Assembly (NCBI GenBank): GCA_003135475.1
Contig: PLBW01000063.1
Coordinates: forward strand, 1 to 35,208
Direction: 5' to 3'
DNA: 35,208 bases
Origin: Acidobacteriaceae bacterium
GTDB taxonomy: Bacteria > Acidobacteriota > Terriglobia > Terriglobales > Acidobacteriaceae
The notes below the pieces were generated by a model that saw only the letters and a list, made by a program, of their open reading frames with translations, did no database searches and was not told the origin of the DNA. The position numbers and the translations under genes are program-made. This document shows, in pieces, positions 2,455 to 27,458 of this stretch. Numbering within the stretch: position 1 is the first letter of the stretch; every line of letters begins with the position of its first letter.

Positions 2455-3192
2455 TCAATTTCCGCTAGAGACCGTGCGCAGCTTCCCCGGCATGAAGTGA
2501 TAGGGCGGCCAAGGTCCCGTGATGGTGATGTGGCAATCCTTGAAATGCCGGGTCGCAGCGCTGTAGCGGTTCTGATATTTCAGGACGGAGGTGGAATCGA
2601 TGAGGTGGGCAAAGTCGATCAGCATGCCGCCGGAGTCAGTGCGTTTGCAGATTACGTCTTCTTCGAGGGGTGAGAACAGCTTGTGCACTTGCATGGAGAG
2701 TGCCCGAGCTTTTGTCTGCCGTTCCCGGTCGCGTGTAGCCTGCTCCCGCAATTTGCGAAGGTACTCACCACCTACGCCGTTGGGAAGCTCGGCAATGGCT
2801 TCCCGCAATGTCCCATCCTTGAGCAGAAGCTTGAAATGCATTTCAGCTTTTCCCCGCAAACGGGCCACCGACTCCAGAAACGCTTTGCGATTCGCTCTAA
2901 CCGCTCGGCGCAGGGCTTCATCGGAGTCGAAGATGGTGCCAAAGCGAAATGGCAGGACGGTCAGGGTACGGAAGCATTCACTGACTACGTGAGCATGGTC
3001 CAGAATGGCTTGTTGATTGAGGGGTTGGGCAGCGGAGTGCTCGCTTACGATGACGGCGAATTCTCCGCTGGGACAGGCGAACACCGGAGCGTCGTTCACG
3101 CCTCGGAGATTTTCAATCGCCACCGGACGCCGGGCTCGGATACTACCTTGAAGGCCCTGCTGCTCGGTAATGCAGTACGCGTACCACGCCAT
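2455..3192 (-). CDS. GvpL/GvpF family protein
   Basis: The 245-residue product matches the GvpL/GvpF family: an N-terminal alpha/beta part opening MAWYAYCI, the family signature LPFRFGTIFDSDEAL in the middle, and a helical C-terminal part with a charged stretch REQATRDRERQTKARAL. GvpF and GvpL are minor structural or assembly proteins of gas vesicles. No gvpA, gvpN or other vesicle gene is in the window, so a gas vesicle role cannot be assumed; orphan members exist in non-floating soil bacteria. The start at 3192 is supported by AGGAGAG 6 bases upstream. It is transcribed in the same direction as the kinase but 425 bases separate them, so they are probably separate units. Confidence 0.85.
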   Translation of the reverse strand: MAWYAYCITEQQGLQGSIRARRPVAIENLRGVNDAPVFACPSGEFAVIVSEHSAAQPLNQQAILDHAHVVSECFRTLTVLPFRFGTIFDSDEALRRAVRANRKAFLESVARLRGKAEMHFKLLLKDGTLREAIAELPNGVGGEYLRKLREQATRDRERQTKARALSMQVHKLFSPLEEDVICKRTDSGGMLIDFAHLIDSTSVLKYQNRYSAATRHFKDCHITITGPWPPYHFMPGKLRTVSSGN

Positions 3193-3495
3193 CTCAGTCT
3201 CTCCTGGGAGTGATCGCACACAGTTTCTTTATCGCTGTGCATGATGGAATGCTGAACTTGCGAACGTGGGACTAAAGGGTCTGACTTCTGGAATCGGAGA
3301 TAGCCTGGAACCATCTCCAACCTCTTTATCCTAAGCCTTTCACCCCGGAAACTGCAACCTGATTTTTGCCTGCGAATGCATTTTTCTGCCATTGGACTGG
3401 AAAAAATCCCGATTCGACCCTCCTCCGAAGACCGCGGGCAGTGGCCATCTCCAGACCTCGCGGGAAATCTTCCGTGGCTTGGGGCACCAGGCTTC
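3193..3495. other. Intergenic stretch, nothing recognised
   Basis: It holds the gvpL/F-like gene's ribosome binding site next to 3193. I see no convincing hairpin, promoter pair or conserved small frame. Confidence 0.5.
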
Positions 3496-8855: not shown

Positions 8856-9485
8856 TTAGCGAGTCAGCTTGCGGCGCAGTACGCCAGCCAGGCCAAGGAT
8901 GCCAGAACCGAACAGCAGGATGCTGCTGGGCTCAGGAGTCGTTCCCGGGCTGGTGCTGCCGCCGGTCAGAGTGAAGGCTTCCGACGGAATCGAACCCAGG
9001 CTGTTCTCATAGGCCGTCGACGGTCCGCTGTTCTCATCCCAGTAAATCGGGTTGCTGATAGAGCAACCGGAGGTGGAGCAGGCGTTGCTCAGGGTCACAA
9101 AACCGCCGCTCGACGCAATGGGGCTGAACGTGTAATCAGCCTGGTACAGGTTGAAACCGTACTGGTTGGTTCCCAGGAAGGTGTTGGTGACGCCGGTCAA
9201 CGTGTGCGGAGTACCGCCGAATGACGTAGAGCCGAGCGCCATGTCCACGGTTGTCAGAAGGTCCGAGCTCGACGAATCCCAGTAAACAAGGTGTAGGTCG
9301 CCGATGGGGGTGCTACCTGCATCCGTGAAGGAGTCGCTGACGGAGAAGCCGAAGTTGATGGTCCAACCATCGTTGGTGCCGTTATATGGACCGTTGGAAT
9401 AGACAGTACCTGCCATGGCAGGAGCAACAGCCAGCACTAGGCAGGCGATTGTGAGCAGTGACAGAGAAGCGATACGCGTTTTCAA
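8856..9485 (-). CDS. PEP-CTERM sorting domain protein
   Basis: This 209-residue exported protein has a signal peptide (1-25, ending AMA-G) and a C-terminal sorting tag: PEP at 184-186, a hydrophobic helix SILLFGSGILGLAGV, then basic RRKLTR. In known systems exosortase (EpsH/XrtA) cleaves and sorts such proteins to the surface, often in exopolysaccharide producers. The middle is Ser/Thr/Gly/Asn-rich and beta-like, without an enzyme motif. It begins with TTG at 9483-9485: AAAGGAGGG lies 8 bases upstream and the signal peptide begins right there. A -24/-12 element lies at 9567-9582. No exosortase gene is in the window. Confidence 0.92.
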   Translation of the reverse strand: MKTRIASLSLLTIACLVLAVAPAMAGTVYSNGPYNGTNDGWTINFGFSVSDSFTDAGSTPIGDLHLVYWDSSSSDLLTTVDMALGSTSFGGTPHTLTGVTNTFLGTNQYGFNLYQADYTFSPIASSGGFVTLSNACSTSGCSISNPIYWDENSGPSTAYENSLGSIPSEAFTLTGGSTSPGTTPEPSSILLFGSGILGLAGVLRRKLTR

Positions 9486-24145: not shown

Positions 24146-24619
24146 TCAGTCGAGATCGAGTCCTCCATCGGCAAACATCGCAGCCGCGATCTGTTGCGGA
24201 CAAAGCTGGTACCTTCCCCCCGCCATGGCTTGTTTCAGCGAATCCACCCGCTGCTGCCGGATGTCTGGAACCTCGTCCAGGCGTGTCTTCAAGGTCTGGA
24301 CCGCCACGCTCCAGGTAAACAGATGGGTCACAGCTTCAGCATCGGCGGTCATGTCCTGGCCATTACTCCCGGCGCGCGTGCTGCGGTCCAGCGCCGGCAT
24401 GGCTTGCGGATTTAACAGGCTGCCGAAAAATAGGTCCCAACGGGTGTCGTGAAGCGGCGCATCTTCCGATGTGCCATTAAGCGCTTTGCTTTTGCCATTT
24501 TGGGCGGGCGAACCGGGGTCCCCGACGGGCGCAGTTTTCGCGCTGGTTGGGGTAAAGTTCAGCCCGCTGGAGATCTGCTTTTGGCACTTTTTCAGCAGGC
24601 TCTTTAAGTCAAATGTCAT
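24146..24619 (-). CDS. flgM: Anti-sigma-28 factor FlgM-like
   Basis: The 157-residue protein ends in the FlgM pattern: RVDSLKQAMAGGRYQLCPQQIAAAMF, the helices that bind sigma-28. FlgM holds FliA until the flagellar hook is complete and is then exported. The N-terminal two-thirds is low-complexity and probably disordered, as in FlgM, but longer than usual (about 100 residues). ATG 24619 has AGGAG 5 bases upstream. A near-perfect sigma-28 promoter lies at 24654-24680, and fliA is just upstream in the same direction. The pair would form a feedback loop. Confidence 0.8.
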   Translation of the reverse strand: MTFDLKSLLKKCQKQISSGLNFTPTSAKTAPVGDPGSPAQNGKSKALNGTSEDAPLHDTRWDLFFGSLLNPQAMPALDRSTRAGSNGQDMTADAEAVTHLFTWSVAVQTLKTRLDEVPDIRQQRVDSLKQAMAGGRYQLCPQQIAAAMFADGGLDLD

Positions 24620-24653
24620 CCCAGCTCCTCGTGCTATGTCCCCTGCAATTGAG

Positions 24654-24680
24654 TGATCGGCAGTAGTTAAGAAAACTTTA
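24654..24680 (-). promoter_or_regulatory. Sigma-28 (FliA) promoter of flgM
   Basis: On the minus strand TAAAGTTT (24673-24680), 11 bases, then GCCGATCA (24654-24661). The enterobacterial FliA consensus is TAAAGTTT-N11-GCCGATAA, so 15 of 16 bases match with exact spacing. It lies 35 bases upstream of the flgM start. Confidence 0.88.
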
Positions 24681-24766
24681 ATCTTCTTGTGCGAATTTCT
24701 TGCCGCCTGCTGATCGTCCCAGCCGTACCTATAGATTCCTCGCTCCGTCGAGAATCAATCACTACG

Positions 24767-24795
24767 CTTCGGCTTCACTCCGGGCAGGCTCCGGC
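24767..24795. repeat. Dispersed 29-base repeat, second copy
   Basis: This sequence matches 140-168 in 26 of 29 positions in the same orientation (common core GGGCAGGCTCCGGC). It lies in the 272-base gap between fliA and flgM, upstream of the sigma-28 promoter. Confidence 0.6.
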
Positions 24796-24891
24796 ACTCA
24801 GGACACAGAGTTTTCGGTTTCTATCGGGTTTTCTCCGTGTCTCCGTGGTTGACTTTCATCCGTATAGTTGGGTCGAAACCCCAGCTGACAC

Positions 24892-25704
24892 TCAGGAGCT
24901 CTTCCACATCCCCACCTGCGGGGTAGCGGCGTGAACGGACGCGGTGAGAGCGGCGGCGCGACTTTGGGCACTGTCCAGGCTGACCCGCAGCCGCGCCACC
25001 GCCATGGAATGAATCTGCGAGACGCGCGATTCTCCCACTCCCAGCACCGCTCCTACCTCCTTCATGGTGAGCTCTTCCTGGTAATACAGGGCGAGCACTT
25101 GCTGTTCGCGCGGCGGCAACTCTGCAATCGCATCCGCCAGCAACTGCCGACGCTCTCCCTGCAAGCAGAGAAACAGAGGATCCTGGTTGGCGGGCCCCGG
25201 AAGATTTTGCCCGAGATCGGTTTCCCGCCCATCTTCCAGCGATACGATCTGCAGGCTGCCTACCTCGAGGCCGCGAATTTCGTCCAGCAGGTGCTGAAAT
25301 TCCTCCAGGGTCATGCCCATGGCCAGCGCCAGCTCGGGCTCGGTGGCCGAGCGGCCCAGTTCGGTCTGCAACTTCTGCGTGGTGGTTTCCAGGCGGCGGG
25401 CTTTGCGGCGCAGGTCGCGCGGACTCCAGTCCATGTCCCGCAGACTGTCCAGAATGGCTCCCCGGATACGGAACTTGGCATAGGAGGCGAAGCGCACCTT
25501 CTTATCCGGGTTGAACTTGTGCACGGCGTCGATCAGGCCCACGATGCCAGCATGCAGAAGATCGTCGAAAGGAACGTGCTGCGGCAGCCGCTCGTGGATG
25601 CGACGTGCGATGTATTTTACCTGCGGCAGTTCTTCCAGCAGGAGCTCGTCCGTCATCTCAGCAGCCGGTTCACTAATCTGCTCGTAAGGGTGGGGCGCAA
25701 TCAT
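24892..25704 (-). CDS. fliA: Sigma-28 factor FliA/WhiG type
   Basis: The 270-residue sigma factor directs late flagellar and chemotaxis genes. Region 2 (about 25-100) contains DDLLHAGIVGLIDAVHKFNP, VRFASYAKFRIRGAILDSLR and DWSPRDLRRKARR; region 3 follows (LGRSATEPELALAMGMTLEE); region 4 (about 195-250) has LPPREQQVLALYYQEELTMK and the helix-turn-helix GAVLGVGESRVSQIHSMAVA. Length is slightly above the E. coli protein. ATG 25704 has GGAGG 4 bases upstream. The gene is the first of the pair fliA-flgM, and its product should read the flgM promoter. No flagellar structural genes are in the window, so the regulon must lie elsewhere. Confidence 0.95.
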   Translation of the reverse strand: MIAPHPYEQISEPAAEMTDELLLEELPQVKYIARRIHERLPQHVPFDDLLHAGIVGLIDAVHKFNPDKKVRFASYAKFRIRGAILDSLRDMDWSPRDLRRKARRLETTTQKLQTELGRSATEPELALAMGMTLEEFQHLLDEIRGLEVGSLQIVSLEDGRETDLGQNLPGPANQDPLFLCLQGERRQLLADAIAELPPREQQVLALYYQEELTMKEVGAVLGVGESRVSQIHSMAVARLRVSLDSAQSRAAALTASVHAATPQVGMWKSS

Positions 25705-25949
25705 GTCTCCTCCTTATCGAATCATTTCGACGACTGCACCGGCAGCACTGGGGGATAGTTGTCCGGGCGCCTCGACGGCGTCCGCGTCAAATCTCAGCAG
25801 GACTACGCAATGGTCGTCACAAAGACCGTTGTAGTCCGCCAACCTTAGAAATGGATTAGTAGGGAATTAGAAGTTTCTAGGAAACTGAAGAACTCTCGCG
25901 ATGCCGACGAAATATGCCCGTTGAGCCAGATCGCGCAGTCTGCCGTCGC

Positions 25950-26618
25950 TCAACCAATGCAGGGCAATCGCACAATCCAGACTCCGGGAAGGCCAGGGGA
26001 CGCGCCCCATATCAGGTCACCGCCAACCGCGCAAAAGGTTCGGCGGGCAATTTCCAGCTCACCGTTCCAATCAGGCTCGCAGCAATCGTCAGACGGCGCG
26101 GCATCAACGCGGGCCCCGCATCCCGCGATGCAGATCTCCACCTGCTGTTGGTCCTTGCGCTCTCCGCGCATGCTGAGACCGTGACTCGGGGAAGGGCAGC
26201 GGAGCAGGAACTCCAGGAGATAGAAGAAGCCGCGCACCAGCTTGGCTTCATTCGCTGCCACCTTCACCGCTGCGCAGGTCAGCTCAAAGGACCGTCCCGC
26301 GGACTCAAACAGGGGAAGTATATCCTCGCGCAGTTGCTGCAAAAGCCGATCGAGCGCAAGCGGCGCAGAAGTATCGCCGGCATCTTCCGCGTCGCTCAAT
26401 TCGCGCAGCAGCAGCAACCGCTGACGCAGCCGTTCGGCGTTTTGCAGGGCGGCTTCCACGCTGGCGCGAAATTCCTCGAGGGTTTGGTCGCGCACCAATG
26501 CGAGTTCCAGCGAGCACTGCAGAGCGGTGAGCGGCTGGCTGAGATCGTGAAACACGTTGGACGCGAAATCGCGGCGCGGAGCAAGCTCTGTGGCGGAGGC
26601 TGCGGCAGACGCGCTCAC
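25950..26618 (-). CDS. Degenerate histidine kinase, HisKA plus ATPase remnant
   Basis: The 222-residue protein has a dimerisation helix with FASNVFHDLSQPLTALQCSL and phospho-acceptor H24, but no sensor domain or membrane helix. The second half should be the ATP-binding domain, yet I find no N-box or clear glycine boxes; instead VKVAANEAKLVRGFFYLLEF and GDLIWGASPGLPGVW. It may therefore work as a phosphatase or phosphotransfer protein, somewhat like ChpT, rather than a kinase. The GTG start at 26616-26618 overlaps the TGA of the response regulator gene, so the two are coupled. Confidence 0.75.
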   Translation of the reverse strand: MSASAAASATELAPRRDFASNVFHDLSQPLTALQCSLELALVRDQTLEEFRASVEAALQNAERLRQRLLLLRELSDAEDAGDTSAPLALDRLLQQLREDILPLFESAGRSFELTCAAVKVAANEAKLVRGFFYLLEFLLRCPSPSHGLSMRGERKDQQQVEICIAGCGARVDAAPSDDCCEPDWNGELEIARRTFCAVGGDLIWGASPGLPGVWIVRLPCIG

Positions 26619-27301
26619 ATCGGCGCCCCGGCGTGGCAGCTCATTTCGTATCCCACACCGCGGACCGTGTGAATGAGATGGGGTACGTATTCACCATCCA
26701 CCTTCTTGCGCAGGTAGTTGATATAAACATCGACGATGTTGGTGGTGGTATCGAACGACAGGTTCCACACGTGCTCCACGATCATGGCACGGGTGATGCG
26801 GCGGCCCGCATTGCGCATGAGGTATTCAAGCAGGGCAAATTCTTTCGAAGTAAGCTCGATGCGCTTGCCGGCACGTTCCACCTTGCGTTCCACGCGATCG
26901 AGTTCCAGGTCGGCGAGTCGCAACACCGTCTCAACGGTTTGCGGGCCGCGGCGCAGCAGCGCCCGCACCCGCGCCGAAAGCTCGGTGAAGGAAAACGGTT
27001 TGATGAGGCAATCGTCGGCGCCGGTGTCGAGCGATTGCACCCGGTCTTCCACCCGGCTGCGCGCGGTGAGCACCAGCACCGGAAGCGACGGTTTCTTGGG
27101 ACGCACGGCGTTCAGCACGCCTATGCCGTCGAGCTTGGGAAGATTCAGATCGAGGATGAGCAGATCGTATTCGCTTTCCAAGGCCATCTGCCGGGCCTGT
27201 TCACCATCGGGCGCGACATCAACCGCATAGTGTTCCGCCTCCAGGCCCTTGCGGAGAAAGCTGGCGAGCGAAGCGTCGTCTTCCACAACCAGGATGCGCA
27301 T
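26615..27301 (-). CDS. OmpR/PhoB-type response regulator
   Basis: The 228-residue protein has a receiver (1-120) with the acidic pocket E7-D8-D9, phospho-acceptor D51 (LLILDLNLP), T79 and K101 (LIKPF), then a winged helix DNA-binding domain (about 128-225: LTSKEFALLEYLMRNAGRRI, TTTNIVDVYINYLRKKVDG, IHTVRGVGYEM). It should act as a DNA-binding switch with the coupled histidine-kinase-like protein. ATG 27301 has AAGG 7 bases upstream. GGTWACC-type sequences and a palindrome upstream may be its binding sites. Confidence 0.95.
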   Translation of the reverse strand: MRILVVEDDASLASFLRKGLEAEHYAVDVAPDGEQARQMALESEYDLLILDLNLPKLDGIGVLNAVRPKKPSLPVLVLTARSRVEDRVQSLDTGADDCLIKPFSFTELSARVRALLRRGPQTVETVLRLADLELDRVERKVERAGKRIELTSKEFALLEYLMRNAGRRITRAMIVEHVWNLSFDTTTNIVDVYINYLRKKVDGEYVPHLIHTVRGVGYEMSCHAGAPM

Positions 27302-27315
27302 ACCGTGACCTTGGC

Positions 27316-27458
27316 CAGTAACCAACCAATGGTTACCATGATCTTCGTCTTTTCCACAGGGCTCGTCAACATATCTCCGATCTCTGACAAGGCACGTTGT
27401 GCCGATTCAGGAAGGACCATATTGGACTGGTAACCAGTGAAGGGATGACGAAGATCAT
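27316..27458. promoter_or_regulatory. Possible operator cluster between regulator and 81-residue gene
   Basis: It contains a perfect 12-base inverted pair ATGATCTTCGTC (27338-27349) / GACGAAGATCAT (27447-27458), a perfect 13-base palindrome ACTGGTAACCAGT (27426-27438), and further GGTTACC (27331-27337) and CCAGTAACC (27316-27324) motifs. The spacing suits a looped or paired binding arrangement. Confidence 0.45.

Follow-up and report, generated by a model that had tools for sequence, protein, structure and literature searches.

A locus encoding the sigma factor FliA and its inhibitor FlgM in an Acidobacteriaceae bacterium is best explained as the remnant of a deleted flagellar cluster. The FliA–FlgM pair appears to have survived as a switch that controls a small regulon of non-flagellar genes, which probably includes a tad pilus; we put the probability of this reading at roughly 0.6. 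The locus lies in the window, the whole stretch of 35,208 nucleotides that was analyzed (contig PLBW01000063.1 of assembly GCA_003135475.1). The assembly, referred to as G000, comprises 3.9 Mb in 233 contigs and is 82% complete. The remnant would consist of genes for a response regulator, a kinase-like protein, FliA and FlgM, which are arranged as follows:

24146–24619, minus strand: flgM, anti-sigma-28 factor, its FlgM domain preceded by a long N-terminal extension (PF04316, TIGR03824)
24625–24629, minus strand: AGGAG, likely ribosome-binding site of flgM, read from the sequence
24654–24680, minus strand: sigma-28 promoter of flgM (-35 element at 24673–24680, -10 element at 24654–24661)
24892–25704, minus strand: fliA, sigma-28 factor (TIGR02479, 242 bits; 90 of 93 near-invariant columns kept)
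25950–26618, minus strand: kinase-like HisKA protein (PF00512, 32.8 bits against a cut-off of 26.9), syntenic in relatives
26615–27325, minus strand: OmpR-type response regulator (Response_reg and Trans_reg_C domains)

FliA and FlgM

FliA consists of 270 amino acids. Its TIGR02479 score lies well above the cut-off of 189.6, and Sigma70_r2, r3 and r4 all exceed their Pfam cut-offs, as expected of the FliA/WhiG family. A sequence search of the PDB returned FliA-type sigma factors as the best matches. The 157-residue FlgM matches PF04316 with 41.2 bits (cut-off 25), and passes TIGR03824 marginally (40.9 bits against 40.75). The PDB search gave a single match for it, weak at an E value of 0.13, to a chain with the name "negative regulator of flagellin synthesis". 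From these matches the protein is identified as FlgM, that is, as a member of the anti-sigma-28 family, with predicted binding and inhibition of sigma-28. The FlgM domain occupies residues 107–149. The preliminary description had called the FlgM N-terminus unusually long, in agreement with the lengths of 94 and 97 amino acids found in two flagellated relatives. The FlgM match of the sister species G157 spans only 84 amino acids, and the N-terminal extension is therefore not fixed in the genus.

The flgM promoter

The two genes lie next to each other on the same strand, as first described, and the near-perfect sigma-28 promoter proposed for flgM is confirmed by comparison with the E. coli consensus. 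The promoter reads TAAAGTTT-TCTTAACTACT-GCCGATCA on the minus strand, with one mismatch to TAAAGTTT-N11-GCCGATAA, and is the sole match with three or fewer mismatches in the whole window. Transcription is predicted to start near position 24647. The ATG of flgM, which ends at 24619, is located about 28 nt downstream of this position and 5 nt downstream of the AGGAG motif. No match with one mismatch or fewer occurred in 120 Mb of simulated DNA with the dinucleotide make-up of the window, and the entire G000 genome contains two. The promoter block is kept in all five species compared (G000, G115, G139, G157 and G187), with unalignable DNA upstream of it. The suggestion that FliA would drive its own inhibitor is thus consistent with both the genes and the promoter. 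Because the flagellated relatives also have a sigma-28 promoter before flgM, such feedback would be ordinary. In G244 and G176, two tandem sigma-28-type sites precede flgM (L119:9356–9437 and L120:10271–10349).

Arrangement of the locus

The flagellar clusters of two flagellated relatives, G030 and G021, start with an OmpR-type regulator, a HisKA protein and an NtrC-type activator. The structural genes flgB, flgC, fliE, fliF and fliG come after the NtrC-type gene and, in G030, the series continues to flhB (names assigned by eye). The regulators heading these clusters are 82% and 76% identical, respectively, to the response regulator of the window (tblastn). In four flagellated relatives (loci L055, L056, L057 and L063, where most flagellar gene names were assigned by eye), fliA directly follows flhA, and flgM is found 6–11 kb further on, on the same strand and near flgJ. 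The flagellated order is formed by the response regulator, HisKA and NtrC-type genes, about 20 kb of structural genes, flhA–fliA, another 6–11 kb, and flgM. In the window, the response regulator, HisKA, fliA and flgM genes keep this order and strand, and the structural genes are missing. The best reading of this comparison is that the locus represents the regulatory skeleton left by the deletion of a flagellar cluster. The adjacency of fliA and flgM would be a consequence of the deletion of the structural genes that separate these regulators in the relatives.

The arrangement of the window is also found in G115, G139 and G187, and the NtrC-type gene is retained as well in G036, G244, G278 and G023. 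In G157, where fliA and flgM are on separate contigs, fliA is followed by an HDOD gene. This genome, which has no FlhA or flagellin match, contains a 316-residue FlgE-like relic (L116:9383–10333), located between fliA and the HisKA gene, that matches FlgE_D2 with 40 bits and Flg_bb_rod slightly below the cut-off.

PF00512 was the sole match in a Pfam scan of the HisKA protein, in which an ATPase domain was not recognized. No sigma-54-like motif was found upstream of fliA in the five species examined. The region upstream of fliA in the window (25705–25870) contains a block conserved in four species, with TTCTAAT/CTAATCC-like repeats that possibly constitute a candidate response-regulator site. 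Elsewhere in the window, a GvpL/GvpF gas-vesicle protein gene is located at 2455–3219 (PF06386, 167 bits), and the protein encoded at 8856–9485, which has no match in the Pfam scan, ends in what resembles by eye a PEP-CTERM sorting signal.

Flagellar markers in the genome and the family

The preliminary description implied a flagellar setting, and held that a genome devoid of flagellar genes would argue against its proposal. Two markers, FlhA and flagellin, were used to judge flagellar absence. Neither was found in the 82%-complete G000 assembly, and with the adjacency of the pair attributed to deletion, the flagellar setting is not borne out. The same result could be obtained from a normal motile bacterium with its flagellar genes in the part of the genome missing from the assembly, as the incompleteness of G000 and the presence of flagellin-family proteins in three genomes of the genus would allow. 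However, G115 (100% complete) and G139 (99%) have the same locus and neither FlhA nor flagellin was found in them, and the structural genes expected inside the window locus itself are missing, which makes this explanation very improbable. The two markers were likewise not found in G157 and G187, which also carry the FliA–FlgM pair.

Nine genomes of the genus were searched, with FlhA found in none, FlgM in six, FliA in five and flagellin-family proteins in three (G063, G200 and G213). The latter three do not overlap with the five FliA-bearing genomes; G200 and G213 (71–74% complete) may be flagellated. In a sample of 300 genomes of the family, FlgM was found in 169 and FlhA in 145, both being present in 132, FlgM alone in 37 and FlhA alone in 13. 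The 37 genomes with FlgM alone and three more of the genus were searched for FliA, which was present at an E value of 1e-45 or better in 19 of the 40. Flagellin was not found in 15 of these 19. Among these 15 genomes, which also lack a FlhA match, fliA is interrupted by a stop in two (G163 and G188) and matched only in part in two others (G090 and G214); the pair is therefore decaying in some lineages. On a tree of FliA with 41 rows, at least seven changes are required to account for the flagellum-less state, three of them forced by well-supported branches, so this state probably arose more than once. Eight forks of the tree are weakly supported, and the number of flagellar losses is for this reason given as a range.

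Flagellin genes are present in G011 (L060:2239–5658) and G015 (L061:5010–5735), two 99%-complete genomes in which neither FlhA nor FlgM was found. The flagellin gene of G011 is followed by genes resembling fliD and fliS.

Candidate regulon of FliA

A search of the genome for the same element, expected at first before flagellin and chemotaxis genes, revealed two further conserved sites. The element is thus present before other genes, as anticipated, although these are a flp/tad operon and an unnamed gene rather than flagellin or chemotaxis genes. The second G000 match with one mismatch or fewer is positioned at the edge of contig C139, which ends before flp is assembled behind the promoter. Its counterpart in G115, G139 and G187 lies 197–207 bp before a tad-linked Flp pilin gene. 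The genes downstream of flp are a CpaB-like one, which matches Pfam RcpC in G115, and others of tad type, with an AAA ATPase match in G115 and a T2SSF match in G187. Conservation of the site across the four species starts just upstream of the -35 element. Two flp loci were scanned in G157, which has FliA, and no such sigma-28 site was found before their flp genes. The perfect form of the flp promoter occurs only in G115, G139 and G187 among the 30 loci scanned out of 38 matches listed; in the flagellated G031, a two-mismatch site is located 277 bp before flp.

All five species have the third site, in which the -35 and -10 elements are conserved and the spacer has diverged. It precedes the following gene:

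L163:3901–4476, L165:1488–2069 and orthologues: unnamed gene of about 190 amino acids, third site upstream

No Pfam match was found in the two proteins of this group that were scanned. A relaxed pattern, built after the sites had been seen, matches the five genomes perfectly at 14 positions: five before flgM, five at the third site, two before flp and two at one other site shared by G139 and G157. In G139 and G187, the site before flp deviates from this pattern at one position. The flgM, flp and third-site groups account for 12 of the 14 matches, against a chance expectation of 0.18 matches in total. The extra site of G139 and G157, whose spacer is identical in both, was left uncounted. With up to three mismatches, the E. 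coli pattern matches G000 at 21 positions and the reversed pattern at 18. Enrichment of loose matches was rejected on these numbers, and only the best sites were used. In G115 and G139, a sigma-28-like site also marks the start of a PilZ-domain gene (L166:3737–4094 and L167:2934–3303); as it coincides with the start codon and was observed in just these two species, it is treated as a lead.

FliA and FlgM may also form a working switch without a tad target, the true regulon consisting of the unnamed gene and signalling genes. One further sigma-28 site precedes a CheR-HDOD-CheB operon in G244 and G176 (Pfam analysis on G176 only), where a Flp match was not found, and a site is located 45 bp upstream of an HDOD gene in G157. 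This distribution is in line with such a regulon, but in G000 only the flp site and the flgM promoter match with one mismatch or fewer, and the flp site is correctly oriented and common to four species. We consider a regulon devoid of tad genes improbable.

Conservation of the pair

Mean dN/dS values are about 0.24 for FliA and 0.48 for FlgM, compared with a range of 0.06–0.13 among five neighbours and a value of 0.05 in the response regulator. Other high values were obtained for the HisKA gene (0.29), hemA (0.28) and a cupin gene (0.52; partial match only in G139). FliA is less constrained than the five neighbours, and FlgM is weakly constrained; the end of flgM falls in an assembly gap in G187. 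FliA is intact in all five species of the genus. Of the columns that are near-invariant in 20 flagellated rows, the genus keeps 90 of 93, and region 4 retains every one of its 25 (eight of the 41 rows, comprising outgroups and divergent or partial sequences, were excluded from this alignment).

The low constraint on FlgM, its variable extension and the interrupted or partial fliA genes in four of the 15 genomes described above would fit a decaying relic. In that case, recent common ancestry would explain why the genes and the flgM promoter are still present, with little function left to them, and the sites before flp and the unnamed gene would be due to chance or belong to another sigma factor. 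Against this stand the intact FliA with its near-invariant columns, the flgM promoter, which is kept although its upstream surroundings are not, and the third site, which is kept in five species although its spacer has diverged. A decaying relic is, on balance, rather unlikely, and a retained switch is the preferred reading.

Discussion

The canonical FliA–FlgM checkpoint is that of enterobacteria, a textbook case of a sigma factor tied to the completion of a machine. The system described here resembles it in the sigma and anti-sigma families, the promoter consensus and the feedback on flgM, and differs in that the two genes are adjacent and no hook-basal body was found for the export of FlgM. 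In the proposed mechanism, FliA would start flgM from the observed sigma-28 promoter, a role compatible with its conserved residues. As this is the gene of its own inhibitor, the pair would constitute a self-limiting switch. No flagellar export machine was found, so the usual secretion of FlgM would be impossible; relief is anticipated to occur without export, and the simplest route would be proteolysis, which has been reported for Legionella oakridgensis. Released FliA would drive flgM, the unnamed gene and probably the Flp pilin/tad operon, a regulon suggested by the sites and their conservation. More speculatively, the response regulator probably sets the transcription of fliA.

In Legionella clade III the flagellar system is gone and fliA and flgM are kept; in L. 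oakridgensis, flgM is sigma-28 dependent and FlgM seems to be degraded, not exported, according to a review (PMC5655016). The pair described here is an orphan of the same type, with fliA and flgM in genomes without a FlhA or flagellin match and a sigma-28 promoter before flgM. The dependence of flgM on sigma-28, shown in Legionella, is here indicated by the promoter sequence. The present case belongs to another phylum, the two genes are adjacent, and a response regulator and a HisKA gene are linked to them. It also has a likely tad target, of which the available text of PMC5655016 makes no mention for clade III.

FliA of Bdellovibrio is reported to activate the TAD/flp1 promoter of that organism in E. 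coli (PMC5430801). The sigma-28 site before the tad-linked flp of G115, G139 and G187 is analogous, with promoter activity shown for Bdellovibrio and predicted here. By contrast, FliA of Bdellovibrio also drives flagellin, and the flagellum is present. By sequence, the genus would thus unite an orphan pair of the Legionella type with a tad site of the Bdellovibrio type. A FliA–FlgM leftover is known from another phylum and in another arrangement; what is new here is likely the tad target. Searches for FliA, FlgM or sigma-28 in Acidobacteria, and for sigma-28 with Flp or tad, found no Acidobacteria report in a literature collection from which subscription journals were mostly absent.

We tentatively propose that repeated flagellar loss in the Acidobacteriaceae reduces the cluster to its regulators, and that in the genus the sigma-28/anti-sigma-28 switch may have been rewired from flagellin to Flp pilin and tad, with FlgM relieved otherwise than by export. 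Lineages that have kept the switch but no longer the machine offer a way to study the relief of an anti-sigma factor when export is unavailable, and the shift of a regulon between surface appendages. The several separate losses beside flagellated sisters in this family make a comparative study possible.
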